Assembly (NCBI GenBank): GCA_017984655.1
Contig: JAGNZB010000007.1
Span: forward strand, 1-21,986
Source of the DNA: Candidatus Altimarinota bacterium
GTDB taxonomy: Bacteria; Patescibacteriota; Gracilibacteria; RBG-16-42-10
Length of the DNA: 21,986 nt
Reading direction: 5' to 3'
In this document: one piece after another, positions 1 through 20,576 of the stretch
Layout: every line of letters begins with the position of its first letter
How positions within the stretch are numbered: the first letter of the stretch is position 1
Made by a program: the position numbers and the translations under genes
The notes under the pieces: generated by a model
What the model saw: only the letters and a program-made list of their open reading frames with translations
Told to the model about the DNA's origin: nothing
Databases searched by the model: none

Positions 1-140
1 CAAAAGGGACAACCTGCACGGGTGTCGTGAACAGTATTGCTGCATGTGCAGAAGACTATTCCCCGAAACTGGTTGCCCCAGCTTGAGAGTCTTCGTGCAT
101 GCATGAAAATGCGCAGCAAAATGTAAACACTATTCACGAC
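1..140 (-). ncRNA. Candidate structured small RNA, rod-like hairpin
   Basis: The stretch folds into a long imperfect rod. Arms 24-35/129-140 pair at 11 of 12 positions, 37-43/113-119 pair, 47-57/88-99 pair with one bulged base, and 69-72/78-81 close the tip. The single mismatch in the outer stem is C-A on the plus strand but G-U on the minus strand, which favours minus-strand RNA. Just upstream on that strand is an extended -10 (TGC then TATATT, 147-155) with TTGCTG 16 bp further (169-174). This places the start at about 140, exactly the base of the rod. At 5-26 the minus strand has a short hairpin followed by CCTTTTG, a weak terminator-like end at the window edge. The family is not recognised; a 6S-like RNA or a counter-transcribed replication RNA is possible. 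Confidence 0.5.
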
Positions 141-146
141 CAAACA

Positions 147-174
147 AATATAGCATGGGTACAGAGAACAGCAA
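147..174 (-). promoter_or_regulatory. Predicted promoter of the structured RNA
   Basis: On the minus strand, TTGCTG (169-174) is followed after 16 bp by TATATT (147-152), preceded by TGC as an extended -10. The predicted start falls at about 140, at the foot of the hairpin. The recombinase promoter of the same element (3834-3842) has the same TGCTATATT core. Confidence 0.45.
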
Positions 175-2464: not shown

Positions 2465-3790
2465 ATGAATGAAGATCATTCTGTTGAAGCAAAGCTAGAA
2501 CAGTTGAAACAACAAATACCAAAACAACCATCACGGGTACCTGTCGTGCCTGCTCCTCCTGTCCCCTTATTATTTGTAGAATGGCGCGATAGTTTAGCAA
2601 ATGAATTCCCAGAGTTAGCATTTGCTTCTGAAGTCGTAGCTAGTGTGTCAGCGCAACTACTCATCAATGATGTCCATAATCCATTCGGTCTAGTATTAGT
2701 TGATGTTCCTTCCTCAGGGAAAACAATTACCCTTAACTTCTTTTCAGGTGCTAAGAATCTCACCTATTTTACTGACAAGTTTTCTCCTGCTTCTTTTGTT
2801 TCTCATGCAACAAATGTGAAAAAGGAAGATTTGCAGAAAATCGATATGTTACCGAAGATCAAACATAAGGTTGTAGTAGTGCGAGAGATGGCGACTATAT
2901 TTGGGGAGAGGGAAGAAGATTTGCGTAAGAATATGGGGATTCTTACCAGAGTGATGGATGGTGAAGGTCTCCAGATTGATTCGGGTGTACATGGTCAGCG
3001 TGGCTATAGTGGAGATTATTGTTTTATGTTAGTCGCTGCATCAACTCCTATTCCTCCCAAAGTATGGAAAATGATGGGAAACCTCGGGTCTAGGTTGTTC
3101 TTTCTCAACATTGATGGTCGCGAGAAGAGCGAGCAGGAACTAGTAGCACAAAATAGTAGTTCAAGCTTTAAAGAGAAGGAGAAGATTTGTATTGAACTGA
3201 CTGCAGATTTCCTAGCTACACTTTTTTCATCAGCTCAAGAAGGCCTTACTTGGGACAAGAGTAAGGATGATCAGCTCGCTTTAGCGATTATTGCTAGGGC
3301 TGCTAAATTACTTGCTGCCCTACGTGCCCCAATTAACATTTGGCGTGATCATGGCGATGGAGGAGATAACCACACTACGGTTATCAAAGAGATGCCGGAC
3401 CGCATAAATCATCTTTTGTATAATTTGGCCCGTGGGCATGCAGCTTGTGATAGTAGAAATTACATTACTCAAGATGATTTAAAGGTCGTTCTAGCTGTTG
3501 CATACTCTTCAGCTCCACCTCAACGTGTGAAGGTCTTTAAAGCGTTGCTAAAGCATGGTGGTAAGCTCTCAACCAACTTACTGCGAGGTGAGATCAATTG
3601 TAGTCAGCCCACAGCTATCGAGGAAATGAAGGCTCTTGCTGTTTTGAAGGTGGCTTACTTTACTGGTGGGTACGATGAAGATACTAATCAGGAAAGAGAG
3701 ATAACACTTCATGATAACTTCCGATGGTTCCTTACTGATGAAGCTAATGCGTTGTTTCCGATGAGTCATACTGACTTGAAACTACTATAG
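2465..3790 (+). CDS. AAA-like replication ATPase of mobile element
   Basis: This 441-aa protein has a Walker A at residues 80-87 (DVPSSGKT, with D in place of the usual first G) and a hydrophobic strand ending in 'VREMA' that fits Walker B. A conserved-looking block follows: 'LTRVMDGEGL', 'SGVHGQRGY', then a strand 'VAASTPIP' resembling a sensor region, and 'GSRLFF'. The N-terminal 35 residues are proline-rich and flexible. The C-terminal about 80 residues look like a winged helix. It resembles helicase-like ATPases of phage and plasmid primase-helicase systems, but I cannot name the family. Placed 12 nt after the CHC2 protein, it may act with it in loading or unwinding at the element's origin. 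Confidence 0.65.
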   Translation: MNEDHSVEAKLEQLKQQIPKQPSRVPVVPAPPVPLLFVEWRDSLANEFPELAFASEVVASVSAQLLINDVHNPFGLVLVDVPSSGKTITLNFFSGAKNLTYFTDKFSPASFVSHATNVKKEDLQKIDMLPKIKHKVVVVREMATIFGEREEDLRKNMGILTRVMDGEGLQIDSGVHGQRGYSGDYCFMLVAASTPIPPKVWKMMGNLGSRLFFLNIDGREKSEQELVAQNSSSSFKEKEKICIELTADFLATLFSSAQEGLTWDKSKDDQLALAIIARAAKLLAALRAPINIWRDHGDGGDNHTTVIKEMPDRINHLLYNLARGHAACDSRNYITQDDLKVVLAVAYSSAPPQRVKVFKALLKHGGKLSTNLLRGEINCSQPTAIEEMKALAVLKVAYFTGGYDEDTNQEREITLHDNFRWFLTDEANALFPMSHTDLKLL

Positions 3791-3805: not shown

Positions 3806-3842
3806 AGGGGCACTGAAAGTAAAAGTGTCCCTATGCTATATT
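3806..3842 (+). promoter_or_regulatory. Recombinase promoter with overlapping inverted repeat
   Basis: Arms 3806-3814 (AGGGGCACT) and 3824-3832 (AGTGTCCCT) pair over nine positions with one G-T wobble, around a 9-nt loop. They are followed directly by an extended -10 (TGC TATATT, 3834-3842). No T-tract follows the hairpin, so an operator overlapping the -35/spacer is more likely than a terminator. A transcript would begin around 3849, only about 12 nt before the recombinase ATG. Confidence 0.5.
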
Positions 3843-3860: not shown

Positions 3861-5459
3861 ATGAAATACTTTCTTTATTGTCGAAAGAGTAGTGACAGAG
3901 AAGATAAGCAGTTGCTATCCATTGATTCACAACAACGAGAGATGGTGCAATATGCTATCGATAAAGGCCTGGAGATCGTTGATGTCTATGTCGAAGAACA
4001 GTCAGCATACAAAACAGGTCGAACAGTCTTCTACACGATGCTTGAAAGAATTAAGAAGGGTGATGCTCAAGGAATTATCACCTGGCATCTAAGTAGATTA
4101 GCTAGAAATAACCATGACGGAGGAGCTGTAGTTTACATGGTTGATGAAGGATTTATCAAAGAAATACACACCAAGGAACGAATCTACTCAAATACAACTA
4201 ATGATAAATTTTTCCTGCAGTTAGAGTTCGCAGTAGCTAAGAAGAGTTCTGATGATACGGGTGATTATGTCCGTCGTGATTTAAAAGCCAAGCTTGAGAA
4301 AGGTGAGTGGATAGCAGTTGCGCCATTAGGCTATCTCAATATGGATCGCAATGGCAGAATCGCCGGTAATATGTACGATCATGAGAAACAGCGTATTTTT
4401 ATTGATTCCAATCGGCCGTTGAAAAGGATAGAAGCAGATCCAATTGATGGTCCTAGAATTCACAAACTTTTTCTAAAAGCAGCAGAACATGGTATGTCTC
4501 TCAAGAAGTTAGAGAACTATGCTTGGGAACTAGGTCTTCGAACGCGAAAGCAGAAGCTTAGAGTGAAGTTATCTACTATCAGCTGGATCCTAAACAATCC
4601 ATTTTATTACGGGATGATGAGATATGATAATAATAAACTATTTGTAGGCAACTACGATCCTTTGATCTCCCACGAACTGTTTGAACGAGTCCAAGCTTTA
4701 CTAAAAGACCCCAGTAAACCTAGGCTGCAGAAACATCGATTCTTTTATACTGGTCTTATTCGGTGTGGTACCTGTGGTGCAATGATTACTGCTGAAAAGC
4801 ATGGAAAATATACTTACTATCGCTGCACCAAGAAGAAAGGTGCCTGTGATGCTCCTTATGTGAGTGAAGAGAAGCTGGAAGAGATGTTTGTTGCAAAACT
4901 TAGTAAAGTGCAGATACCTCGAGAGTTCGTTGATTTTGCTTTTCAGATATTCAAATCTTGGCATGCTGACAGCACAAAAAGTAAACTGACTAGTCAAAAG
5001 AAACTCCATGAGGAGCAAACCAATTTGAGGGGGCAACTGGATAATTTATTGCTACTTAAAATCTCTTCAGCTAATAGAGACGGTCAAATGCTAAGTGATG
5101 AAGAATATTTACGTCAGAAACGTTTTATAGAGAGTAAGCTCAATGATGTTGAGGAGAAACTGCGGGATAATCAGGCCGATCATGAGTCATGGTATGAGAA
5201 ATGCGAACGGCTGTTTATTTTTGCATCACAGTTATTGGCTCAGTTTAAATGCGCATCGCTCGAAAAGAAGCATATTGTGCTTAGAACGGTAGGTACTTCC
5301 TACATTCTGAGGGATGGTGTATTAGAGTTTGAATACAAAGATTTATTTCAGATATTTGAACGGCTCGAAACGCAACAAACCCGCATACAAAAAAGCCTCA
5401 GTGGTTCTTCTGAGGTTCATTCTTCAAACTGGCGGGACTGGCGAGACTCGAACTCGTGA
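3861..5459 (+). CDS. Large serine recombinase (integrase) 1
   Basis: The 532-aa protein has the serine-recombinase N-terminal catalytic domain: 'YCRKSSD' with the expected nucleophile Ser10 and Arg8, 'LSIDSQ', and the arginine motif 'SRLAR'. A Recombinase domain follows with 'NPFYYGMMRY'. The zinc ribbon is intact (C302, C305, C322, C329), and a coiled coil covers about 375-455. It cuts and rejoins DNA at attachment sites through a 2-bp staggered crossover. I moved the start from 3801 to 3861 because the catalytic domain begins directly there and a promoter ends at 3842. The last nine residues (WRDWRDSNS) are encoded antisense to the tRNA-Asp 3' half, so the gene is at its integrated attachment site. 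Confidence 0.9.
   Translation: MKYFLYCRKSSDREDKQLLSIDSQQREMVQYAIDKGLEIVDVYVEEQSAYKTGRTVFYTMLERIKKGDAQGIITWHLSRLARNNHDGGAVVYMVDEGFIKEIHTKERIYSNTTNDKFFLQLEFAVAKKSSDDTGDYVRRDLKAKLEKGEWIAVAPLGYLNMDRNGRIAGNMYDHEKQRIFIDSNRPLKRIEADPIDGPRIHKLFLKAAEHGMSLKKLENYAWELGLRTRKQKLRVKLSTISWILNNPFYYGMMRYDNNKLFVGNYDPLISHELFERVQALLKDPSKPRLQKHRFFYTGLIRCGTCGAMITAEKHGKYTYYRCTKKKGACDAPYVSEEKLEEMFVAKLSKVQIPREFVDFAFQIFKSWHADSTKSKLTSQKKLHEEQTNLRGQLDNLLLLKISSANRDGQMLSDEEYLRQKRFIESKLNDVEEKLRDNQADHESWYEKCERLFIFASQLLAQFKCASLEKKHIVLRTVGTSYILRDGVLEFEYKDLFQIFERLETQQTRIQKSLSGSSEVHSSNWRDWRDSNS
5389..5415 (-). terminator. Intrinsic terminator downstream of tRNA-Asp
   Basis: On the minus strand CCTCAG (5410-5415 side), an 8-nt loop and CTGAGG (5396-5401 side) are followed by C and then six T (5389-5394). 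This is a compact rho-independent terminator 14 nt beyond the tRNA CCA end. It lies inside the recombinase reading frame, so the integrated element supplies the tRNA's terminator. Confidence 0.65.
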
Positions 5460-5506
5460 CCTTCCGCGTGACAGGCGGACGCTCTAACCAACTGAGCTAC
5501 AATCCC
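5430..5506 (-). tRNA. tRNA-Asp(GTC)
   Basis: The 77-nt minus-strand sequence folds as a full cloverleaf. The acceptor GGGATTG/CAGTCCC has one G-T pair, the D arm is GCTC/GAGC, and the anticodon stem TCCGC/GCGGA has loop CTGTCAC, giving anticodon GTC. The T loop is TTCGAGT and the discriminator is G followed by an encoded CCA. The outermost T-stem pair is a mismatch (A-C). The 3' half is overlapped by the recombinase 1 reading frame, marking the integration point of element 1. Confidence 0.93.
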
Positions 5507-5656
5507 TTGTAGGTGTATTTGCACAACTGAAATACCATTGTCACTGCACTCATTAGATGAGGCATGTGGAATATAAGCAAATAGCGGGCTGCTGTCAAAA
5601 GAAAGTGAGGTGACTTAGCTTCTTTTTTGCCTGCACATTCCGATTAAGTCATCAAC

Positions 5657-5678
5657 TAGCAACTACTACTAGTTGCTA
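5657..5678. repeat. Perfect 9-bp inverted repeat (hairpin)
   Basis: TAGCAACTA, a 4-nt loop CTAC, and TAGTTGCTA form a perfect stem. No T-tract follows on either strand, so it is not a convincing terminator. It lies in the 478-bp gene-free stretch 5507-5984, about 40 bp before the larger structured region. A protein-binding site or attachment-site arm is possible. Confidence 0.5.
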
Positions 5679-5717
5679 AGCCTTACACTTTCAAGCAAGG
5701 AAGAATATTCTGGTGTG

Positions 5718-5852
5718 AGCGATTATTTCCTGTTTCCTTGCTCCTCTTTCCTTGAGATCGCAAAATTTCGTCCAGGTTAAAAACTTAGGAACGAGGAAAT
5801 AGGAAATAGACTCGACCGCCTATGGCGATCTCGTGAGCCGATAGGTCGAGTA
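5718..5852 (+). ncRNA. Candidate structured RNA in gene-free stretch 5507-5984
   Basis: Positions 5724-5740 pair with 5792-5808 over 17 base pairs, two of them G-U on the plus strand. After a single mismatch the stem continues with 5742-5745/5787-5790. A second hairpin follows at 5811-5850 (stems CTCGAC/GTCGAG, CTAT/ATAG, GGC/GCC with small bulges) and is followed by a T-rich stretch. The G-U pairs would be C-A mismatches on the other strand, so plus-strand transcription is favoured. A weak promoter (CTTACA 5682-5687, TATTCT 5706-5711, spacer 18) would start near 5718. GAGATCGC (5754-5761) and GCGATCTC (5825-5832) could pair as an alternative fold. The family is unknown. The rest of 5507-5984 shows no gene. 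Confidence 0.45.
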
Positions 5853-5984
5853 GTTACATTTCTTTCATTTTTCCTGTTGTGCTTGAGAAAAGAGTTTATA
5901 TTTATGGTACTACATGGAGGCCACTTTACCGGCGAGAGTCTATTATCACCGAGTAGTGTGTAACATTGTTATCTTATCTATTGA

Positions 5985-6611
5985 TTAGAGATTAGCTGGA
6001 GGTTGAACTAATAGGGGATATGCTCTGATCACATCTGATGCAACTGATGGTAATGGTTGGACTTTTACTAAACGAAGTGCAGTGATTTCTTCTGTGAAAT
6101 TGATTTCTAATGTGTCACTTACCTTTTTTGTAGTTTCTAGATCTAAAGCTTTTGTATATCTAGCAATAGTTACATGAATAATATTAGGCGTCCGTGGCAG
6201 CACTAATTCAGTAGGAAGCCTATCTTTGATGCCGATAAGAAACTGGTCTCTCATCTGTTTGATCGTTTCGTTGTTATCAGCTTGAATGAATATTGCTTCT
6301 GGACTGGCTACTATTTTAGAAAACTTGATTATTGCCGGTTTAGTGTTGGTGACAATAGTTCTTAACACTTGGTCATAGACTTTTTTTATAGACTCGTTTT
6401 CTGTCTCAGTTAGTAGAGGTAAATCAAGTGTGTTTACTATGCTGATGTGTAGAGTCTCAGTTGGTGTCATCCATAAAGCATCTCCCAAGTTTGTTTTCAA
6501 TTTTTCCTGAATGATATTTATTTCTTTAGCTGTATTTTTTGATAACTCGGTATTTACCCAATAGCCATAAAAGGGACGATTGAAAGTATTGGTGATAGTT
6601 TTTTCTAACAT
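5985..6611 (-). CDS. 2H phosphoesterase-like protein
   Basis: The 208-aa protein carries the two H-x-[ST] signatures of the 2H phosphoesterase (LigT / 2'-5' RNA ligase-like) fold: H55-I-S57-I and H146-V-T148-I, 91 residues apart, each on a hydrophobic strand ('LHISIVNTL', 'IIHVTIARY'). Family members open cyclic phosphates or cleave 2'-5' linkages. Phage members such as Acb1 degrade cyclic oligonucleotide signals of CBASS. The substrate here is unknown. It is soluble, with no membrane segment. The gene follows the zinc-ribbon gene by 25 nt in the same direction, so the two are probably co-transcribed from the promoter region near 7222-7328. An anti-defence or RNA-repair role is inferred only from the family and the mobile context. 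Confidence 0.75.
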   Translation of the reverse strand: MLEKTITNTFNRPFYGYWVNTELSKNTAKEINIIQEKLKTNLGDALWMTPTETLHISIVNTLDLPLLTETENESIKKVYDQVLRTIVTNTKPAIIKFSKIVASPEAIFIQADNNETIKQMRDQFLIGIKDRLPTELVLPRTPNIIHVTIARYTKALDLETTKKVSDTLEINFTEEITALRLVKVQPLPSVASDVIRAYPLLVQPPANL

Positions 6612-6636
6612 GAGGAATTAGGTATTGTGAAGTTTT

Positions 6637-7221
6637 TTACAATCCAAACGTTTTCAGAAGCGTTGGGTGAAGAACCTGCCAGATTGTAGCCGCATTGGCT
6701 GTCAATGAAACTATACTTGAAATGCCTTTTAATAAAGTTTTGACGATAGGTTTGTTTTGCTGGTTAGCCTCTTTAAGAGATTCTTTTGCCACATAATCTA
6801 GGCTTGAGAGTATCTCATTTTTTTGTTCGGCATCTATTAGGGGCTCGGATAAGACTGACTGTGAAAAGTTTTTTATGGTCTCTGCTATCTCAGTGTTAGA
6901 TACGGAACATAAATTCTCAATGGTCTGATTTAGGTTTGTGATAGTGCCTGTATTAATAAGTCCTATATTACTATCGTTAATAGAAATATGATTTTGATTC
7001 ATATGAATTGTATTATTATCTTTTATTTGATATCTGGGTGTTGTTCTTACGCCACTCATCAAGTCAAATTGCTCATAAAGCATGTTCAACTCTCTGTATG
7101 TACTTTCGTTCTGACGTTCTATAGTTTCACTTAAAATTTTGTAACAGTTTAAACATAGTGCTACTTGTTGCCCGTCACCAACTTCAATCATTGCTGGTCT
7201 ATCACACTGGTTACATTTCAT
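6637..7221 (-). CDS. Zinc-ribbon protein with hydrophobic C-terminus
   Basis: The 194-aa protein starts with a CxxC...CxxC zinc ribbon (C3, C6, C23, C26), followed by a helix to about residue 55. A short asparagine-rich beta segment around 78-100 ('INDSNIGLINTGTI') looks like a repeated-strand or oligomerisation motif. A helical region (105-160) and a C-terminal hydrophobic/amphipathic helix (about 163-194) follow and could touch or insert into a membrane. I recognise this layout from uncharacterised bacterial proteins but not a named function. It is the first gene of a minus-strand pair with the 2H phosphoesterase, divergent from the small membrane protein. A membrane-acting effector or a sensor is conceivable; neither is shown. 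Confidence 0.65.
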   Translation of the reverse strand: MKCNQCDRPAMIEVGDGQQVALCLNCYKILSETIERQNESTYRELNMLYEQFDLMSGVRTTPRYQIKDNNTIHMNQNHISINDSNIGLINTGTITNLNQTIENLCSVSNTEIAETIKNFSQSVLSEPLIDAEQKNEILSSLDYVAKESLKEANQQNKPIVKTLLKGISSIVSLTANAATIWQVLHPTLLKTFGL

Positions 7222-7274
7222 AATCGGTTCTACTTTAGTAATCTACCTTTAATGTCTTAACAGATTTATTGGAA

Positions 7275-7302
7275 TTCATACAACTAGTTTGTATGATATA
7301 AT
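7275..7302 (+). promoter_or_regulatory. Promoter with palindromic operator in the spacer
   Basis: TTCATA (7275-7280) and a consensus TATAAT (7297-7302) are 16 bp apart. Between and over them lies CATACAA-ctagt-TTGTATG (7277-7295), a perfect 7-bp inverted repeat that would block RNA polymerase when bound. It drives the 57-aa membrane protein and probably the DUF3800 gene. It also lies about 55 bp upstream of the divergent zinc-ribbon gene and could control both directions. Confidence 0.6.
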
Positions 7303-7328
7303 GTTGTCAGTTAGCCATCTACAAAACT

Positions 7329-7502
7329 ATGTCTGCTAAACTAAGACGCGTTTTTATTCTCGCTATGTATTTAGCTGTGTTTGGAATCGGTCTCTATCTG
7401 ATCTTTGCTGGCAAAGACTGGCGGGGATATATTGCTCTGATCAGCACCCCGCTGTTGCATACGTTGATTAAAACTATTAGTCAGAACAAAATAAGCAAGT
7501 AG
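7329..7502 (+). CDS. Small 57-aa membrane protein
   Basis: The ORF begins MSAKLRRVFILAMYLAVFGI and ends with a lysine-containing tail. A basic N-terminus precedes a strong membrane helix (about residues 8-27). A short 'GKDWRG' turn and a second hydrophobic stretch (about 34-47) follow, so two membrane spans in a hairpin are likely. It starts 27 bp after a consensus -10 and stands 48 bp before the DUF3800 gene, making a two-gene unit likely. Its family is not recognised. Small membrane proteins next to mobile-element cargo can be toxins, holin-like or immunity partners, but nothing here decides among them. Confidence 0.6.
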   Translation: MSAKLRRVFILAMYLAVFGIGLYLIFAGKDWRGYIALISTPLLHTLIKTISQNKISK

Positions 7503-7550
7503 TATTATTTCATAATTTATTTAGTATAGTGTGGATGTCACTCATCCACT

Positions 7551-8333
7551 ATGCAGCCTAGCTCCCCCCATACTCGCTATTTCTTTGTTGATGAGTCTGG
7601 TGATCCTACCTTTTACGATCGCCATGGTGAGTTGATAGTAGGGCAACCGGGCTGTGCTCCTTTGTTGATCCTGGGATTCATTACTACAACCAACCCTGAG
7701 CCGATTAGACATGCACTGGCTGAATTGAAGGCTGAGATCAAAGGTGACCAGTATCTAGCTGGTATTCCATCATTAGCTGGCAGTACTTTGGCCTTTCATG
7801 CGAAAGATGATTGTTTGGAGATTCGCGAAAAGGTTTTTAAGAAAATAGTGACATTAGACTTCAAGGCCCAATTTGTTGTGGGACGGAAGATTGAACGTAT
7901 TTTTCATAAAAGTCATCAATCAAACCCTCAGGTTTTTTACGATGATCTGACGAAGCACCTGTTTAAAAACCAACTTCACTTATCAGCACATAATACGATT
8001 TATTTCTCAAAGCGAGGGAGTAAGAGCCGTGAGCAGATTATCGCTCATGTGATTCAATCTGCAGTCAATAAATTCGAAGAAAAGCATCATTATAAAAATC
8101 ATAATCATCATCAAATCTTTGATCAAACTCCCAGTGGTGAGCCTTGTTTGCAGGTTGTCGACTATATGCTTTGGGCACTTCAAAGAGCATATATCAAGAA
8201 AGAGATGCGCTATATGAATTTTGTTTCTAATAAGGTTAGTTTCGTCTGTGATATTTATGACCGAGATAAATATCCGAATAGTTTCTATAGTAAGAATAAT
8301 CCTTTTGATATAACTAAAATAAGCCCTCTATAA
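7551..8333 (+). CDS. DUF3800 family protein (RNase H-like fold)
   Basis: The 260-aa protein begins with the DUF3800 signature 'YFFVDESGDPTF' (D14, E15, D18), has 'FHAKDD' in the first third and ends with the conserved 'CLQVVDYMLWALQRAY' helix carrying a further Asp. These acidic residues match the metal-binding positions expected for the RNase H-like fold of this family, so a nuclease is likely but unproven. DUF3800 genes are frequent in phages, plasmids and defence islands. A 14-nt repeat-rich, histidine- and asparagine-rich stretch ('HHYKNHNHHQ') lies near residue 180. It follows the 57-aa membrane protein in the same direction. A small hairpin (8339-8352) sits just after the stop but has no T-tract. 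Confidence 0.85.
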   Translation: MQPSSPHTRYFFVDESGDPTFYDRHGELIVGQPGCAPLLILGFITTTNPEPIRHALAELKAEIKGDQYLAGIPSLAGSTLAFHAKDDCLEIREKVFKKIVTLDFKAQFVVGRKIERIFHKSHQSNPQVFYDDLTKHLFKNQLHLSAHNTIYFSKRGSKSREQIIAHVIQSAVNKFEEKHHYKNHNHHQIFDQTPSGEPCLQVVDYMLWALQRAYIKKEMRYMNFVSNKVSFVCDIYDRDKYPNSFYSKNNPFDITKISPL

Positions 8334-8391
8334 GCTAGTGATCTTTCGATCAGCACGGCATGAAGCCGACTTTCGCTCATAGAGGAACTTA

Positions 8392-8412
8392 CTATCAGTA
8401 TATCGCTATCAG
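8392..8412. repeat. Direct repeat CTATCAG, 14-bp period
   Basis: CTATCAG occurs at 8392-8398 and 8406-8412, followed in both cases by T. The spacing is near one and a half helical turns. It lies in the 276-bp gene-free gap 8334-8609 and may be a pair of protein-binding half-sites. Confidence 0.3.
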
Positions 8413-8467
8413 TTAAGATTGTAAATTTACTACGATTAATTAAATTCATATTTCTAAGACCTGCGAA

Positions 8468-8506
8468 TTCTTAAAGAAACATTAAAACTTAATCTTCTTT
8501 AAAGAA
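8468..8506. promoter_or_regulatory. Twin palindromes, likely tandem operator
   Basis: TTCTTAAAGAA (8468-8478) and TTCTTTAAAGAA (8495-8506) are both perfect palindromes with the same half-site and centres about 27 bp apart. Two near-identical palindromes in a non-coding gap suggest a cooperative dimeric regulator. No gene start lies immediately downstream except the uncertain ORF at 8610. Confidence 0.45.
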
Positions 8507-8609
8507 TCCAGCTCTTGCAATTTTGAGTAACATAATTAAGCTCAGCTCGTAAACCATTGTTGATTGGTGAATCGACCCCTAACGTTTCGCTAACCATGCT
8601 TTTTCGAGT

Positions 8610-8816
8610 ATGAGGCATAAGCCTCACCGCACTCTTGGTCAACGTGACCAGCAGAGACGGGGAGGTCAGGCTCAGATTTCTGAACTATTGGAGATTGGGC
8701 GAACGGGACGATCGGTATTTACGGCTGAATTTGTCGAACCTGAAGACAATCCACCCGATGCTGCGGATGATGTCTTGGCTGTGCTGGCTTATACTGGTTT
8801 GTTTGATGGCTTCTAA
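8610..8816 (+). CDS. Uncertain small ORF, 68 aa
   Basis: The frame fits neatly between the palindrome region and the convergent regulator gene ending at 8841. Its codons are richer in G and C than the flanks. The product has a basic N-terminus (MRHKPHRTLGQRDQQRRGGQ) and an acidic C-terminal half ('EPEDNPPDAADD'). I do not recognise it. Against a real gene: the ATG sits on the first arm of a perfect 6-bp hairpin (8611-8626), a second hairpin follows (8636-8650), and another frame (8635-8925) is also open. It may be a remnant or a structured non-coding site. Confidence 0.3.
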   Translation: MRHKPHRTLGQRDQQRRGGQAQISELLEIGRTGRSVFTAEFVEPEDNPPDAADDVLAVLAYTGLFDGF

Positions 8817-8840
8817 TAAGATCTTGGACGAACAGATAAC

Positions 8841-9260
8841 CTATGTGTTGACTAAGCCTAATGTTGGCACGGTTACGAGAGGTTCATCTGCTTTAGTAAT
8901 GATTCCCGTAGGATTTCTTTTATAGATGGCTGATGGTCTACCATTTCTTCTTTTTAGCAGTGCTTCTATTTTTTCCCGACTATCAATGGTGATATCGTCA
9001 GTGGTAGCAATTTCTTCATCGCTCATATCAAGAACTGTCTTGCGTACTAGTAATCCTGCACTTTCTAATGCTCTTAGATTCGAATAGAAGCTAAACTGAA
9101 TATTGTCTCCATAAATTAATTGACCAGCTTTGGCTCTTGTTTCATCAACTAATGTCGCTATTCTAAGCGTACTGCGCCATTGCAAATAGGTTGTGTGCTG
9201 GAGTATTTCTTCAGGTGTTGGTCCTCCAGATGCGAACTTTTCTTTTTTAAACCAAGACAT
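8841..9260 (-). CDS. Winged-helix-like regulator
   Basis: The 139-aa protein has a helix-rich N-terminus ('EEILQHTTYLQWRSTLRIATLVDETR') followed by 'FYSNLRALESAGLLVRK', which looks like the recognition helix and start of a wing in PadR/MarR-type repressors. The later 'RRNGRPSAIYKRNPTGI' resembles a wing strand. The acidic insert between them (about residues 78-95) is unusual. The family call is by pattern only. It is divergent from the recombinase 2 gene across 154 bp containing CATTTG/CAAATG repeats, a classic layout for a regulator controlling an integrase and itself. Confidence 0.55.
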   Translation of the reverse strand: MSWFKKEKFASGGPTPEEILQHTTYLQWRSTLRIATLVDETRAKAGQLIYGDNIQFSFYSNLRALESAGLLVRKTVLDMSDEEIATTDDITIDSREKIEALLKRRNGRPSAIYKRNPTGIITKADEPLVTVPTLGLVNT

Positions 9261-9350
9261 AGGCTTTTATTGAAGCGTAATAGTAGCTGATACAATCTCT
9301 ATTGGCAACTATTATACTAGTTATTTTACTTTGCTTGCGTGTAGCCTTGC

Positions 9351-9399
9351 CATTTGAAATGAGTAATATTTTCATTTGCGCTCTGTTATTATTCAAATG
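9351..9399 (+). promoter_or_regulatory. Recombinase 2 promoter with CATTTG repeats
   Basis: An extended -10 (TG-T-TATTAT, 9384-9392) precedes the recombinase ATG by 22 bp. CATTTGAAATG (9351-9361) is itself a palindrome. CATTTG (9373-9378) and CAAATG (9394-9399) form an inverted pair flanking the -10. No good -35 is visible. The arrangement suggests two operators for a regulator, most simply the divergent winged-helix-like protein. Confidence 0.4.
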
Positions 9400-9414
9400 T
9401 CTTAACTAGCTTCT

Positions 9415-11082
9415 ATGCTCTCTATGCTCGATCCAAAGCAACGTAGGATAGCTATTTACATTCGTGTATCTACTGCTGAGCAACAAACAGAAGGCTATGG
9501 CCTGGAGGCGCAAAGGAGGATTCTACTGGACTATGTGAAGAATACTGAGGTGATGGGGAATATTACCAAACCTGAGTGGATTTATTCGGATACTCATACA
9601 GGTAGCGATTTGATTCGTCCTGGACTTGGTAAATTACGCGAGGCATTTAAGGCGAAGCGCTTTGATGCTGTTTTGGTGCTAAAGATTGATCGTCTATCTC
9701 GAAGCCTGCAACATCTGCTGACGATCTTTGATGAAATGGAGAAGTCAGATGTTAGCTTCATTTCTTTGCATGAGAATCTCGATTTCCGAGGTCCAATGGG
9801 GAAGCTGATCTTTCAGATCTTGGGAGCGATGGCACAGTTTGAACGCGAGCTGATTAAGGATCGTACCAGGATGGGTAGAATCGCCTCTGCTCAGCTCGGT
9901 AACTTCACTGGTGCTCATGTGCCGTTTGGATATCAGTCTATTCCTAATGCCAATGGGAAAGGAAAGAAGATAGCATTGCTTCCCGCAGAGAAAGAGTGGG
10001 TGAGAAAGATCTATGAATGGTATGTCTATGATCAGCTTGGTTCTGGACAGATTGCTAAGAAGCTCAATGACCTCAAAGTGCCAAGAGGGAAGTTTGCTCG
10101 GGATCGCATTAGAGTGCAGAAGTGGACTGATGATGTTGTTAGTGGAATTCTGACGAACTCGACGTATCGTGGTACGTTTATAGCGAATCAGAATGATGAT
10201 CAGGGCAAAGCGCTGGCCACTGAGGATTGGACGATTGTGAAGGTGCCAGCGTGCGTGTCTGAGGTTCTCTTTATGCAAGCTCAATTAGTTCGCAAGCAAA
10301 ACAAAGGGGGACATGCGGTCTTCACTTATTTGTTGAGTGGTAAGCTGTGGGATATGACTCTGGAGAAGCCGCGTTCATTTGTGGGGGCTAAGCGTACGAA
10401 GGGAGGATTTAGTTATCGTCGTAAACAATTCGTGAAGGGGACGACGAGATACCCTGTGTTTGAGATCCCTGGAAAGATGATTGAGGAGTTTGTGTGGCAG
10501 AAGATTCTGACAGCTGTTAAGAAGCCGGAGGACTTTCTCAAGGCATACTTGAAGAAGAATAAAGTCGATAAAAACATGGTGGCTGATCTGGAGAATACGA
10601 TTGCTCACTTGCGTGGTGAAGCGATGAATCTCGATCTAGCGATGGCCCGTATTGAAGCTGCTTTTGAAACAGGTATGTATAGCAATGAGAAATCGCAGCA
10701 GAAATTGGAGCTACGTAATGAGGAGAAACTCGCGCTGTTGGACCAAATCGAAAAGCATGAGAAAGAACTGGCCCAGCTCAGTAGTATTGATGTGCAGCTC
10801 AAGCAACTCAAAGCTGTGTCTGAACAGCTGAAGTATCGAATTGATACGTATGATCGCAAGAATCAGAAACTGATTTGTCAGTTGCTAGTAGAGAAGGTGG
10901 AGATGTTCCGTGAAAAGCAGGGACGTGATTGGCACACGCATGCCAAAGTGTATCTGGAGTTCAACCTCCAAAAGCTCTACCTCAGTATTCTAGGGGGTAG
11001 AACTCTCAAAAAGCATAAGGATGAGCCTAATGCCGGAAATGTTGAGGGGAGGGGGCTTGGTGGAGCCGACCAAGGGATTTGA
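9415..11082 (+). CDS. Large serine recombinase (integrase) 2
   Basis: The 555-aa protein has the catalytic motif 'YIRVSTAEQ' (Ser19, Arg17), 'GLEAQ', 'KIDRLSR' and 'GAMAQFERELIKDRT', then the Recombinase domain ('NSTYRGTF') and a coiled coil at about 390-480. It differs strongly from recombinase 1, so the two elements have separate origins. The zinc-ribbon region (about residues 305-362, 'YLLSGKLWDMTLEKP') keeps the surrounding pattern but has none of the four expected cysteines. The start is either 9415 or the in-frame ATG at 9424. The last residues (ADQGI) are encoded antisense to the tRNA-Thr 3' end. Confidence 0.9.
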   Translation: MLSMLDPKQRRIAIYIRVSTAEQQTEGYGLEAQRRILLDYVKNTEVMGNITKPEWIYSDTHTGSDLIRPGLGKLREAFKAKRFDAVLVLKIDRLSRSLQHLLTIFDEMEKSDVSFISLHENLDFRGPMGKLIFQILGAMAQFERELIKDRTRMGRIASAQLGNFTGAHVPFGYQSIPNANGKGKKIALLPAEKEWVRKIYEWYVYDQLGSGQIAKKLNDLKVPRGKFARDRIRVQKWTDDVVSGILTNSTYRGTFIANQNDDQGKALATEDWTIVKVPACVSEVLFMQAQLVRKQNKGGHAVFTYLLSGKLWDMTLEKPRSFVGAKRTKGGFSYRRKQFVKGTTRYPVFEIPGKMIEEFVWQKILTAVKKPEDFLKAYLKKNKVDKNMVADLENTIAHLRGEAMNLDLAMARIEAAFETGMYSNEKSQQKLELRNEEKLALLDQIEKHEKELAQLSSIDVQLKQLKAVSEQLKYRIDTYDRKNQKLICQLLVEKVEMFREKQGRDWHTHAKVYLEFNLQKLYLSILGGRTLKKHKDEPNAGNVEGRGLGGADQGI

Positions 11083-11135
11083 ACCCTCAACCTACAGTTT
11101 ACGATACTGTCGCTCTACCGTTGAGCTAGGTCGGC
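11061..11135 (-). tRNA. tRNA-Thr(CGT)
   Basis: The 75-nt minus-strand cloverleaf has a perfect acceptor GCCGACC/GGTCGGC, a D arm GCTC/GAGC, and an anticodon stem ACAGT/ACTGT with loop ATCGTAA giving anticodon CGT. The T arm GAGGG/CCCTT has loop TTCAAAT, and the discriminator T is followed by an encoded CCA. Its 3' end is overlapped by 22 nt of the recombinase 2 gene, marking the integration site of element 2. Confidence 0.93.
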
Positions 11136-18420: not shown

Positions 18421-19083
18421 ATGTCATTTTTGTCTATGCGTTTCTTTGACCGTTTATTTTTTCAGAAGTTCCTGGAACCAGAGGAGCAAATTGTGGTAGT
18501 GATCCACAAGCACTGGTGGTCCATTATTGTGGCGGTCACCAAGTTTATTGGTCTCGCTGTCTTGTTTCCGACTGTTGTTTTGTTGCTGTTTTGGAATCGC
18601 TATTTGGTATTCTTTTTTATTCCCTGGATAGTGTACTTATTTGGTATTTGTATTCAGGATTTGGTCAATTGGTATCATGATGCTTTGATTCTGACCTCAA
18701 AAAATGTTCTCAATATTGATTGGCAGGGCTTCTTTCACCGCAGTGCCAATCGGATTAGTTATGACAAGATCGATGGGGTCGAGGCGATTACTGAAGGGGT
18801 TTTTGCGACCGTGCTTGGCTTTGGGGATCTTAGAATCACTACCACTAATGGTTCTTTGGTACTGCCATCTGTGGCCAATGTGGGAGAATGGCAGAAAAAT
18901 ATCTTGGCAAAGAAAGAGGAGGTAGAGGCTCTGAATGGCACCGATGCTGATGTAAGTTTGGCTCAGCTCAAGTCTGCACTCAATAGTTTGTTGGCTGTCC
19001 AACCTGAGGCCGACCCAGTCTCTTATAATATTCATGCGCATCAGGTGATGGTGATGCGTCATAAAAAAATCTCTTCAAAATGA
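18421..19083 (+). CDS. Membrane protein with bPH2 (DUF304-like) domain
   Basis: The 220-aa protein has a short N-terminal cytoplasmic part ('FLEPEEQIVVVIHKHWW'), two membrane helices (about 36-60 and 61-82) and then a bacterial PH-like domain (about 83-165). The domain shows 'WYHDALILTSKNVLNIDW', 'FHRSANRISYDKIDGVEAI' and 'GFGDLRITTTNGSLVLPSV'. The tail is helical. The family's role is unknown. The gene overlaps the glycosyltransferase start by 4 nt (ATGA), so the two are translationally coupled and may work on the same surface polymer. ATG codons at 18421 and 18436 are both possible starts. Confidence 0.8.
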   Translation: MSFLSMRFFDRLFFQKFLEPEEQIVVVIHKHWWSIIVAVTKFIGLAVLFPTVVLLLFWNRYLVFFFIPWIVYLFGICIQDLVNWYHDALILTSKNVLNIDWQGFFHRSANRISYDKIDGVEAITEGVFATVLGFGDLRITTTNGSLVLPSVANVGEWQKNILAKKEEVEALNGTDADVSLAQLKSALNSLLAVQPEADPVSYNIHAHQVMVMRHKKISSK

Positions 19084-20576
19084 TTGATCGTTCACAAATT
19101 CCCCGATGGGAGATTCGCTTTTTTGAGGCCGTTCCGGCGGTGATTACTTGGTCAATCCTCTTGTTGCCATTGCTGCTGGCATTCTTTTTCCCCGCAATTG
19201 TAGCCGTATTTGTGATTCTCTTTGATATCTATTGGTTGCTTCGATCAATTCGGCTCAATTTTGATCTCTTACAGTCATATGGACGACTCAAGCGTGCATT
19301 GGCGACCAACTGGAATGCTCAGTTACAAGCGCAGTGTCCTGAAGACGCTTGGCCTTGGCATGTGGTATTGCTGCCTTATTACCAAGAAGACATTGCTATT
19401 CTCCGGAGTGCATTGGAGAGTGTGAAGCAGCAGCATTATGATTTGAAAAAGATCTTTGTGGTCTTTGGTATCGAGCAGCGTGGTGGGCCCGATATGCTGG
19501 TCAGAGCTCAGACTGTTCGTGAAGAGTTTCTTGATGATTTTGCGGCTATTTGTATTTATGTTCATCCGGATGACATTGTCGGTGAGGTCAAAGGTAAGGG
19601 GCCTAATATCAATTTTGCGATGCAGGCCTTTGAGAAGGAAGTTCTTAATGTTCGTGGTATTGACCCCAATGATGTCTTGATCAACTGTCTTGATGGGGAT
19701 GCCAAGCTACATGTGCAGCATTGTGCTCACTTTTCCCATGTGTTTTTGGCCAATGGTAGAAATCCCAATACGATCTATCAGTTTATTCCGATGTACCACA
19801 ACAATATCTGGGACACACCAGCTCTGATGCGTGTGGTAGCTACAGGCTCTTCATTTTGGTTAATGATGGAGGCCAATCGTCCGGAGAAGCTGCGCACATT
19901 TGCTTGCTATGGGATGAGTTTGGCGACTTTGCGGGCTGATGATTATTGGGACAAGGCCAGTATTATCGAGGATGGTGTGCAGTACTGGAGAAACTTAGTT
20001 GCTTTTGATGGTCAGGGACGGGTGTTGCCTGTCTTCACGCCTGTCTATCAAGACGCTGTGCTCAATGAAGGCTATGTTCGTACCTATATTGGTCAGTATG
20101 TCCAACTTCGTCGTTGGGCTTGGGGGGCCTCTGACTTTGCTTTGATCATGCCTGAGTTTATTCGCAATAAAAAAATTCCCTTTGTCGTCAAACTGACTGA
20201 AGCCTGGGGCTTGTTGGGTGGGCATATCCCTCGTGCTACAGCCCCATTGTTGTTATTCGTCTCCGGTTGGTTTCCATTATTCAACGAGCAGTTTCGAGGC
20301 ACTGTTTTAGCGTTCAATTTACCGATTGTGACTAGTAATTTGCTTACTTTGGCGATGCTCGGGCTCTCTAGTGCGATTGTTGTCGGTATGATGATTTTGC
20401 CCGCTCCTCGCCGCAAGTACCCTTGGTACACTCATGTGATGCAGGTATTACAATGGATTTTCTCCCCATTTGTCACCGTGATCTTCGGCGCCATTCCCGC
20501 AATCGACGCCCAAACCAGACTAGCTTTCGGCAAAAGACTAGAGTGGTTGGTGACAGAGAAGAAGAGAAATGAGTAA
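19080..20576 (+). CDS. Membrane family 2 glycosyltransferase
   Basis: The 498-aa protein has two N-terminal membrane segments (about 17-50) and then a GT-A domain. The domain shows 'VVLLPYYQED', the Asp-rich sugar-nucleotide site 'NCLDGDAKLH', the acceptor-site 'SIIEDGVQYW' and 'QYVQLRRWAWG', equivalent to the QxxRW motif of processive synthases. At least three C-terminal membrane helices follow (about 375-470). This matches polysaccharide synthases of the cellulose/PgaC type, which build and export a glycan from nucleotide sugars. The exact sugar is not readable. It is coupled to the bPH2 protein by a 4-nt overlap. Confidence 0.85.
   Translation: MIDRSQIPRWEIRFFEAVPAVITWSILLLPLLLAFFFPAIVAVFVILFDIYWLLRSIRLNFDLLQSYGRLKRALATNWNAQLQAQCPEDAWPWHVVLLPYYQEDIAILRSALESVKQQHYDLKKIFVVFGIEQRGGPDMLVRAQTVREEFLDDFAAICIYVHPDDIVGEVKGKGPNINFAMQAFEKEVLNVRGIDPNDVLINCLDGDAKLHVQHCAHFSHVFLANGRNPNTIYQFIPMYHNNIWDTPALMRVVATGSSFWLMMEANRPEKLRTFACYGMSLATLRADDYWDKASIIEDGVQYWRNLVAFDGQGRVLPVFTPVYQDAVLNEGYVRTYIGQYVQLRRWAWGASDFALIMPEFIRNKKIPFVVKLTEAWGLLGGHIPRATAPLLLFVSGWFPLFNEQFRGTVLAFNLPIVTSNLLTLAMLGLSSAIVVGMMILPAPRRKYPWYTHVMQVLQWIFSPFVTVIFGAIPAIDAQTRLAFGKRLEWLVTEKKRNE

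Follow-up and report, generated by a model that had tools for sequence, protein, structure and literature searches.

A Structured RNA Beside an Integrative Element

The window, by which we mean the whole stretch of DNA analyzed here, is a complete contig of 21,986 bases (so that position 1 is a contig end) within a 1.05-Mb genome of 92 contigs assigned to Candidatus Altimarinota bacterium. Its left 5.5 kb resembles an integrative element and carries, all on the plus strand, ORF1 (235–1314), the first gene of the element, for which no Pfam family was found; a DUF5659 protein (1452–1706) and a CHC2 zinc-finger primase-type protein (1811–2452), both assigned by Pfam; a protein that we call helicase-like (2465–3790), with a weak AAA_lid_2 match below the Pfam cut-off; and a large serine recombinase (3861–5459), the end of whose gene runs into tRNA-Asp. 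No second copy of the tRNA-Asp end, the expected mark of the element's far boundary, turned up; the six other matches to this end comprise two long stretches resembling other tRNA genes and four of 15–22 bases. An apparent second element lies between tRNA-Asp and tRNA-Thr (5506–11135), with its own large serine recombinase, whose gene runs into tRNA-Thr; it also encodes a DUF3800 protein and, below the Pfam cut-off, a 2'-5' RNA ligase-like protein.

Searches with the helicase-like protein gave no match in plasmids and, in viral contigs, none by single sequence and one by alignment, and in a phage search only the tRNA matched among the best 20 of 70 matches. Sequence search found no near copies of 1–400 in the same genome or of 1–235 in one other genome of the same family, and among 353 genomes of the class there was no element closer than those bearing helicase relatives of about 50% identity.

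To the left of ORF1, on the opposite strand, lies a structured RNA (1–143, minus strand), which we read as a leader, with a 5' end at about 140–143 and a 3' part cut by the contig end. A first-pass annotation had placed a structured RNA on this strand, and folding bears this out: from 174 to 1 the minimum free energy is −61.0 kcal/mol, against −43.9 ± 3.75 kcal/mol for 200 dinucleotide shuffles (z −4.56; 0 of 200 as good), whereas the plus strand of the same stretch gives z −1.50, with 12 of 200 shuffles as good. The annotation was also right to describe the RNA as divergent from the first gene of a mobile element and to put a promoter at its foot, where an extended −10 box, TGCTATATT (147–155, minus strand), stands 6 nt before the outer stem P1; a two-hexamer promoter scan did not include this box (155→147) among its listings. 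P1 is predicted by the fold, with a 5' arm GTCGTGAATAGTGTT (126–140) and a 3' arm AATACTGTTCACGAC (24–38), both on the minus strand. It holds two plus-strand C·A mismatches (32/132 and 36/128) rather than the single one first reported, and both turn into G·U on the minus strand, as had been said of the one.

The remaining features are likewise on the minus strand. The fold gives a side hairpin, P2 (GCATTTTCATGC; 101–112), and best-helix search gives P3, formed by strands X (GAAGACT, 88–94) and X'' (AGTCTTC, 51–57). P3 encloses a segment M (GGGGCAACC; 71–79), and a complementary segment M' (GGTTGTCCC; 6–14) lies immediately 5' of a U-run (CTTTTG, 1–6) at the contig end. A weak local hairpin (GACACC...GGTTGTC; 8–26) competes for M', and its 5' strand is common to the foot of P1. 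This is the hairpin that had been taken for a terminator: the terminator-like end is present, but the hairpin before CCTTTTG is weak (−5.7 kcal/mol), and a terminator scan listed nothing in 1–1500. For the hairpin's 3' strand M offers the better pairing, and no other stretch upstream in the RNA pairs as well with M'. The pair GGGGCAACC/GGUUGUCCC forms 9 bp at −17.8 kcal/mol, loop cost not counted, and for the window alone 13 of 2,000 shuffles of the upstream part give M' an equally good partner.

Against the protein-coding frame raised earlier as the alternative, no ORF of at least 60 aa overlaps 1–234. Nor does the RNA match an Rfam family, in line with the first-pass annotation, which had recognized none: an Rfam scan of 1–174 returned none at gathering score, 6S included, and a scan of 1–400 with E up to 10 returned four unrelated subthreshold matches (E 0.95–9.8), neither 6S nor LOOT among them.

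Related RNAs in Sister Elements

Searching with the helicase-like protein led to 10 other genomes of 379 from the phylum and to 48 loci in named Genome Taxonomy Database (GTDB) genomes. A strongly folded stretch, usually stronger on the minus strand, lies left of ORF1 in 8 of the 12 first elements scanned (the window included), and further ones were found in the named GTDB loci; the fold scan covered 43 of the 49 loci L026–L074 (all but L061, L062, and L070–L073). Rods, as we call these RNAs, occur in 9 of the 49 loci L026–L074 (L036, L038, L039, L040, L045, L047, L049, L054, and L072, the last by descriptor only). Sister elements with no detected leader exist; many loci are cut short, and some of those without a leader are intact.

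Covariance models extended the set. R1, built from three rods, recovered L047 and L049 (E about 5e-5). At an E limit of 0.1 it found matches in 7 of 361 phylum genomes, its own accounting for two, and at a limit of 0.01 in 15 of 199 genomes belonging to one family. R2, built from 18 R1 matches and none of the first rods, recovered L038, L039, L040, L047, L049, and L102 (E 6e-8 to 0.0017) and matched 21 of 370 phylum genomes; the genome counts for both models include the source genomes of their own sequences. Both models placed L045 within its precise limits, yet the E values (0.31 and 1.4) were poor and did not improve on those of some rows that look like chance. Antisense R1 rows (plus-strand rows; L103 and L104) were ignored, and L101 was dropped as identical to L113. 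The resulting 29 RNAs are that of the window, 9 rods from helicase-bearing sister elements, and 19 covariance-model matches; the 28 others are 126–150 nt long, and none of the 29 matched an Rfam family. Neither R1 nor R2 reported the window RNA up to E = 5, and its helicase relatives are only about 50% identical, so that its membership in the family rests on layout: it has a P1, a helix around M, and an M' strand ahead of a U-run.

A Covarying Pseudoknot Adjoins the U-Run

The 29 RNAs share their anatomy from the promoter onward. The −10 box, defined as the best match to TATAAT at a distance of 3–11 nt from the foot (five RNAs agree with it at 4 of 6 letters), is spaced 6 nt from P1 in 26 RNAs, the window among them, 7 nt in 2, and 5 nt in 1. 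In the 18 RNAs of class C, all 144 cells of P1 pair, and 6 of its 8 pairs change on both sides. The P1 anchors of L054, L024, and L036 were placed by hand. The helix enclosing M (GAAGACU/AGUCUUC in the window) was taken as the best helix in each of the 29 RNAs, giving 27 types, and 0 of 10,000 permutations reach the observed total; its columns pair at only 61% and 79% in alignment A9, and in L038, L045, L036, and L118 it is not clearly the same helix as elsewhere. Because best-helix searches always return something, only the permutations count here, and these do not remove relatedness among the RNAs.

M usually contains GGCA and is mostly preceded by A's, which in many RNAs also pair with the U's of the short U-run; the window's M lacks the A's that do so in most relatives. 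M' is the strand immediately before the U-run, complementary to M, and because M lies inside P1 and M' outside it, the two form a pseudoknot. Among 19 distinct types, 166 of 171 possible pairs are formed, against a permutation mean of 129.6 (0 of 20,000 reach the observed value), with M anchored on GGCA or GGCG and the best-complement copy kept (L036 and L112 were placed by hand). In register, 361 of 377 cells pair, vs. 155–234 when the strands are slid. Alignment A4, which comprises 10 RNAs and misplaces L047, gives 93.1% of 101 cells paired vs. 81.9% when shuffled (0 of 500); for two of its five measures, pairs changed on both sides and pair types, the observed value was reached by 11 and 10 of 500 shuffles. 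Covariation among related RNAs, the test that the first-pass annotation had named, is thus found. The alternative partner of M', the GACACC-like 3' foot of P1, gives with it the weak local hairpin, and the M–M' duplex is the stronger of the two in all 29 RNAs (loop costs not counted), which demotes the terminator hairpin of the first reading.

New R2 loci served as held-out cases. P1 of at least 10 pairs and M–M' of at least 8 pairs were present in 17 of 19; the structure of R2 does not encode M–M', but the model profiles the letters of M and M', so that this test is only partly independent. These loci bring new M/M' types, such as GGGCAACTCGCG/TGCGGGTTGTCC and GGGCGACTCGCG/TGCGGGTCGTCC, and the −10 box of the 17 keeps the 6-nt distance from the foot in 12, with 7 nt in 4 others and 3 nt in the last. 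The weakest M–M' helices were those of L129 and L120, with 8 pairs each; the exceptions are L119, which has no U-run by the pattern used, and L132, which is short and probably a false match.

The same pairs speak to whether the conserved object is RNA at all. A structure acting in DNA, as a replication origin or a recombination or protein-binding site, would suit a position adjoining the replication-type genes of a mobile element, and the fold of 1–174 as single-stranded DNA is likewise equalled by few shuffles (4 of 200; z −2.56). The second M–M' pair is, however, kept as G·U in 17 of 19 types, both P1 mismatches become G·U on the minus strand only, and the −10 box is nearly fixed relative to the foot. 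We consider a DNA-level role the least probable of the explanations weighed here.

Genes Follow the U-Run

Of the 28 related RNAs, 26 have sequence beyond the U-run, and every one of these is followed within 150 nt of M' (5–121 nt) by the start of a same-strand ORF of at least 50 aa, which reaches at least 100 aa in 24. At 1,800 random places in the same kind of loci, 1,121 had an ORF of at least 50 aa and 582 (32%) one of at least 100 aa. With an ORF after every U-run that can be followed, the family looks like a set of 5' leaders. The first-pass annotation had suggested a 6S-like decoy or a copy-number or maturation RNA; a lone RNA of the 6S-like or copy-number kind finds no support, since the relatives carry downstream ORFs and no Rfam match was obtained, and the maturation role fares no better on the same evidence.

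Cargo, as we call these genes, is varied. Pfam matched 8 of 20 of the 26 ORFs at E up to 0.001 (one below cut-off) and left 12 with no match, and PADLOC matched six of ten, some of which had been chosen as defense-looking: type IIG restriction-modification enzymes (L040 and L036), a type II methyltransferase (L047), a type III methyltransferase (L045), a GmrSD/HEC-06 protein (L102), and a PDC-S11 protein (L117). Several other downstream ORFs look by eye like membrane or secreted proteins. No pathway common to the cargo genes is evident, which argues against a metabolite riboswitch whose P2–P4 core would bind a small molecule that chooses between folds. The leader position and the alternative pairings do resemble riboswitch expression platforms in general, but the ten A4 rods differ strongly (mean column identity 48%), unlike known aptamers, and we hold this explanation to be very improbable.

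In L101 and L113 (1501–2863), whose RNAs are identical, a LOOT lies 1.1 kb beyond a rod-led ORF, both on one strand; this tandem of rod leader, ORF, and LOOT suggests leader-plus-gene cassettes. Like that of the window, the leaders of L114 and L110 and some LOOT matches (G097:C25, G097:C88, and G171:C61) are located close to or at the end of a contig; repeats, or hairpins that are hard to assemble, may break contigs there.

LOOT Occupies the Same Site in Other Sister Elements

In four sister elements (L015/L030, L016/L033, L026, and L035), the site is occupied by LOOT RNA (RF03000), as found by an Rfam test covering 19 loci with sister elements; 4 of the 49 loci L026–L074 have it (L026, L030, L033, and L035). 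Of 286 phylum genomes, 63 carry LOOT, 61 of them with scores above the cut-off; it is absent from the window's own genome and from 14 of 14 control genomes. On 1–400 the LOOT model gave no match to the window up to E = 10, and its gathering score of 46.4 bits was not reached. Among open-license papers, LOOT is treated in PMC7657543 and PMC7779021, the first of which calls it an extreme example, with 28 cross-covariations; these cross-covariations may reflect alternative pairings.

In each of 22 LOOT copies examined, pairing joins the P3 region to the strand that precedes the U-run, with best helices of 8–15 bp (in L093 the best helix is another stretch than in its relatives) and a helix total of 190.2 against a permutation mean of 121.5 (0 of 10,000 reach it). 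This M–M'-like helix lies outside the Rfam model, whose 121 positions end before M'. An ORF of at least 60 aa follows on the same strand, 4–175 nt downstream, in 20 of 20 copies examined. An orphan RNA thereby gains a testable role, that of a cis leader one of whose helices its Rfam model lacks, and is tied to an RNA family that is absent from Rfam and found in the same elements.

Similar Leaders Precede Recombinase Genes

We scanned all 49 loci and the window, 1.67 Mb of strand-summed sequence, with a descriptor made of the −10 box, P1, M–M', and the U-run. It gave 46 matches, several overlapping and some scattered, with the window RNA among them (scores 32.0 for P1 and 22.5 for M); as these RNAs had served for its design, their recovery is built in. 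Shuffled sequence of the same size gave 12 matches at the loose threshold and 0 at P1 ≥ 25 and M ≥ 22. One further loose-threshold match lies in the window (19065–19181, plus strand). Two others stand away from both usual places, in L034 (11625–11770, plus strand) and in L030 (18606–18735, minus strand), the latter with a 15-bp M–M' helix.

A similar leader lies directly upstream of the recombinase gene in 10 of 26 cases examined (25 loci and the window): L030, L038 (judged by eye), L039, L041, L045, L046, L047, L049, L056, and L060, a count that leaves out the weak L033 and L065 matches and the L034 match, which is not beside a recombinase. In L043 (4495–6630) the recombinase similarity falls in two separate pieces and looks interrupted or doubled. 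The descriptor scan found no such leader at the window's own recombinase gene, whose promoter region (3826–3842) resembles that of the RNA (147–163) on the opposite strand, with 88% identity over 17 bases. Upstream of this gene, at 3806–3842, an inverted repeat (AGGGGCACT, 9 nt, AGTGTCCCT) abuts ATGCTATATT; its right half plus the −10 box is the part that resembles the leader promoter, so a common regulator is possible.

Leaders ahead of recombinase genes, together with same-strand ORFs after rods and LOOT copies alike, above the level of random places, count against a trans-acting small RNA, in which transcription would end at the U-run, the end-sealed 140-nt RNA would be the product, and the downstream gene would be incidental. 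Such an RNA would account for P1 beginning at the predicted first base and for M pairing with part of the U-run in most relatives, which seals both ends, and Rfam types LOOT as an sRNA; on balance we think it unlikely.

A Proposed Switch Ahead of Cargo Genes

That the rods are a family of 5' leaders is well supported by their structure, strand, promoter, and position; they look like an undescribed on/off switch before cargo genes, some of them anti-phage. For the window RNA the leader role is drawn by analogy, the contig stopping at the U-run, and a cargo gene presumably lies beyond. We favor, as somewhat the better bet, a reading in which 143→1 is a 5' leader that gates this gene by transcription attenuation. 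Transcription would start at the foot of P1, and the nascent RNA would fold P1, P2, and P3, after which M, enclosed by P3, would pair with M' and, in most relatives, also with the first U's of the U-run, so that the pseudoknot would seal both ends of a roughly 140-nt RNA. Many polymerases would stop at the U-run because the M–M' helix directly borders it, with the weak local hairpin either assisting or hindering, and the cargo gene would therefore be expressed only on read-through. The shortness of the U-runs counts against this reading. Transcription itself, termination, the off-by-default direction, and a shared signal are what we infer from these sequences.

M–M' could also block termination rather than cause it. 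An anti-termination leader, whose pseudoknot would disrupt a local terminator hairpin, or which would act on polymerase in the manner of put or EAR so that the cargo is read, fits a leader at the very start of the transcription unit and the mutually exclusive folds that arise because M' serves both M and the local hairpin, whose 5' strand also belongs to P1. A helix adjoining a U-run normally favors termination, however, and inspection by eye shows no evident local hairpin for it to disrupt in several recombinase leaders, which makes a purely anti-terminating M–M' less likely; we rate this version as improbable, if the strongest of the alternatives to attenuation.

Beyond the attenuation reading for the window, we advance more tentatively, as a possibility short of an even chance, a common RNA device in the integrative elements of Patescibacteria, composed of a promoter, a start-anchored rod, and a pseudoknot that would grip the U-run. 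It would gate cargo, for example anti-phage genes, and some recombinases, with cargo moving as promoter-plus-leader-plus-gene cassettes under one shared control, and it would have been built repeatedly from different sequences (LOOT, rods, and recombinase leaders). This offers a concrete hypothesis for how the mobile elements of very small bacteria control defense cargo and, in some elements, the recombinase.

Comparison with Known Systems

Among the matches listed in a search of open-license literature, no title concerned such a leader, and none did so for Patescibacteria. The window RNA resembles 6S RNA, a feature of which is a central bulge, in its long rod-shaped hairpin; unlike 6S, rods are followed by ORFs, and their conserved parts are the pseudoknot and the U-run. 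With LOOT the window shares an inner strand that pairs with the strand before the U-run (9 bp in the window), a feature defined here and not by Rfam; the other stems differ, and the window lacks the GCCUAA...GCAUGGC motif. The put RNA of phage HK022 and EAR are, like the leader, structured RNAs that stand first in a transcription unit and may act on polymerase during elongation; no Rfam family matched 1–174 at gathering score, put was compared by description only, and a pseudoknot onto the strand before a U-run is, to our knowledge, not a feature of put or EAR. Transcription attenuators and riboswitch expression platforms differ from the leader in that its main helix is a long-range pseudoknot, with no conserved aptamer-like core and with cargo genes that are mutually unrelated; what they have in common with it is the arrangement of mutually exclusive helices beside a U-run in a 5' leader.
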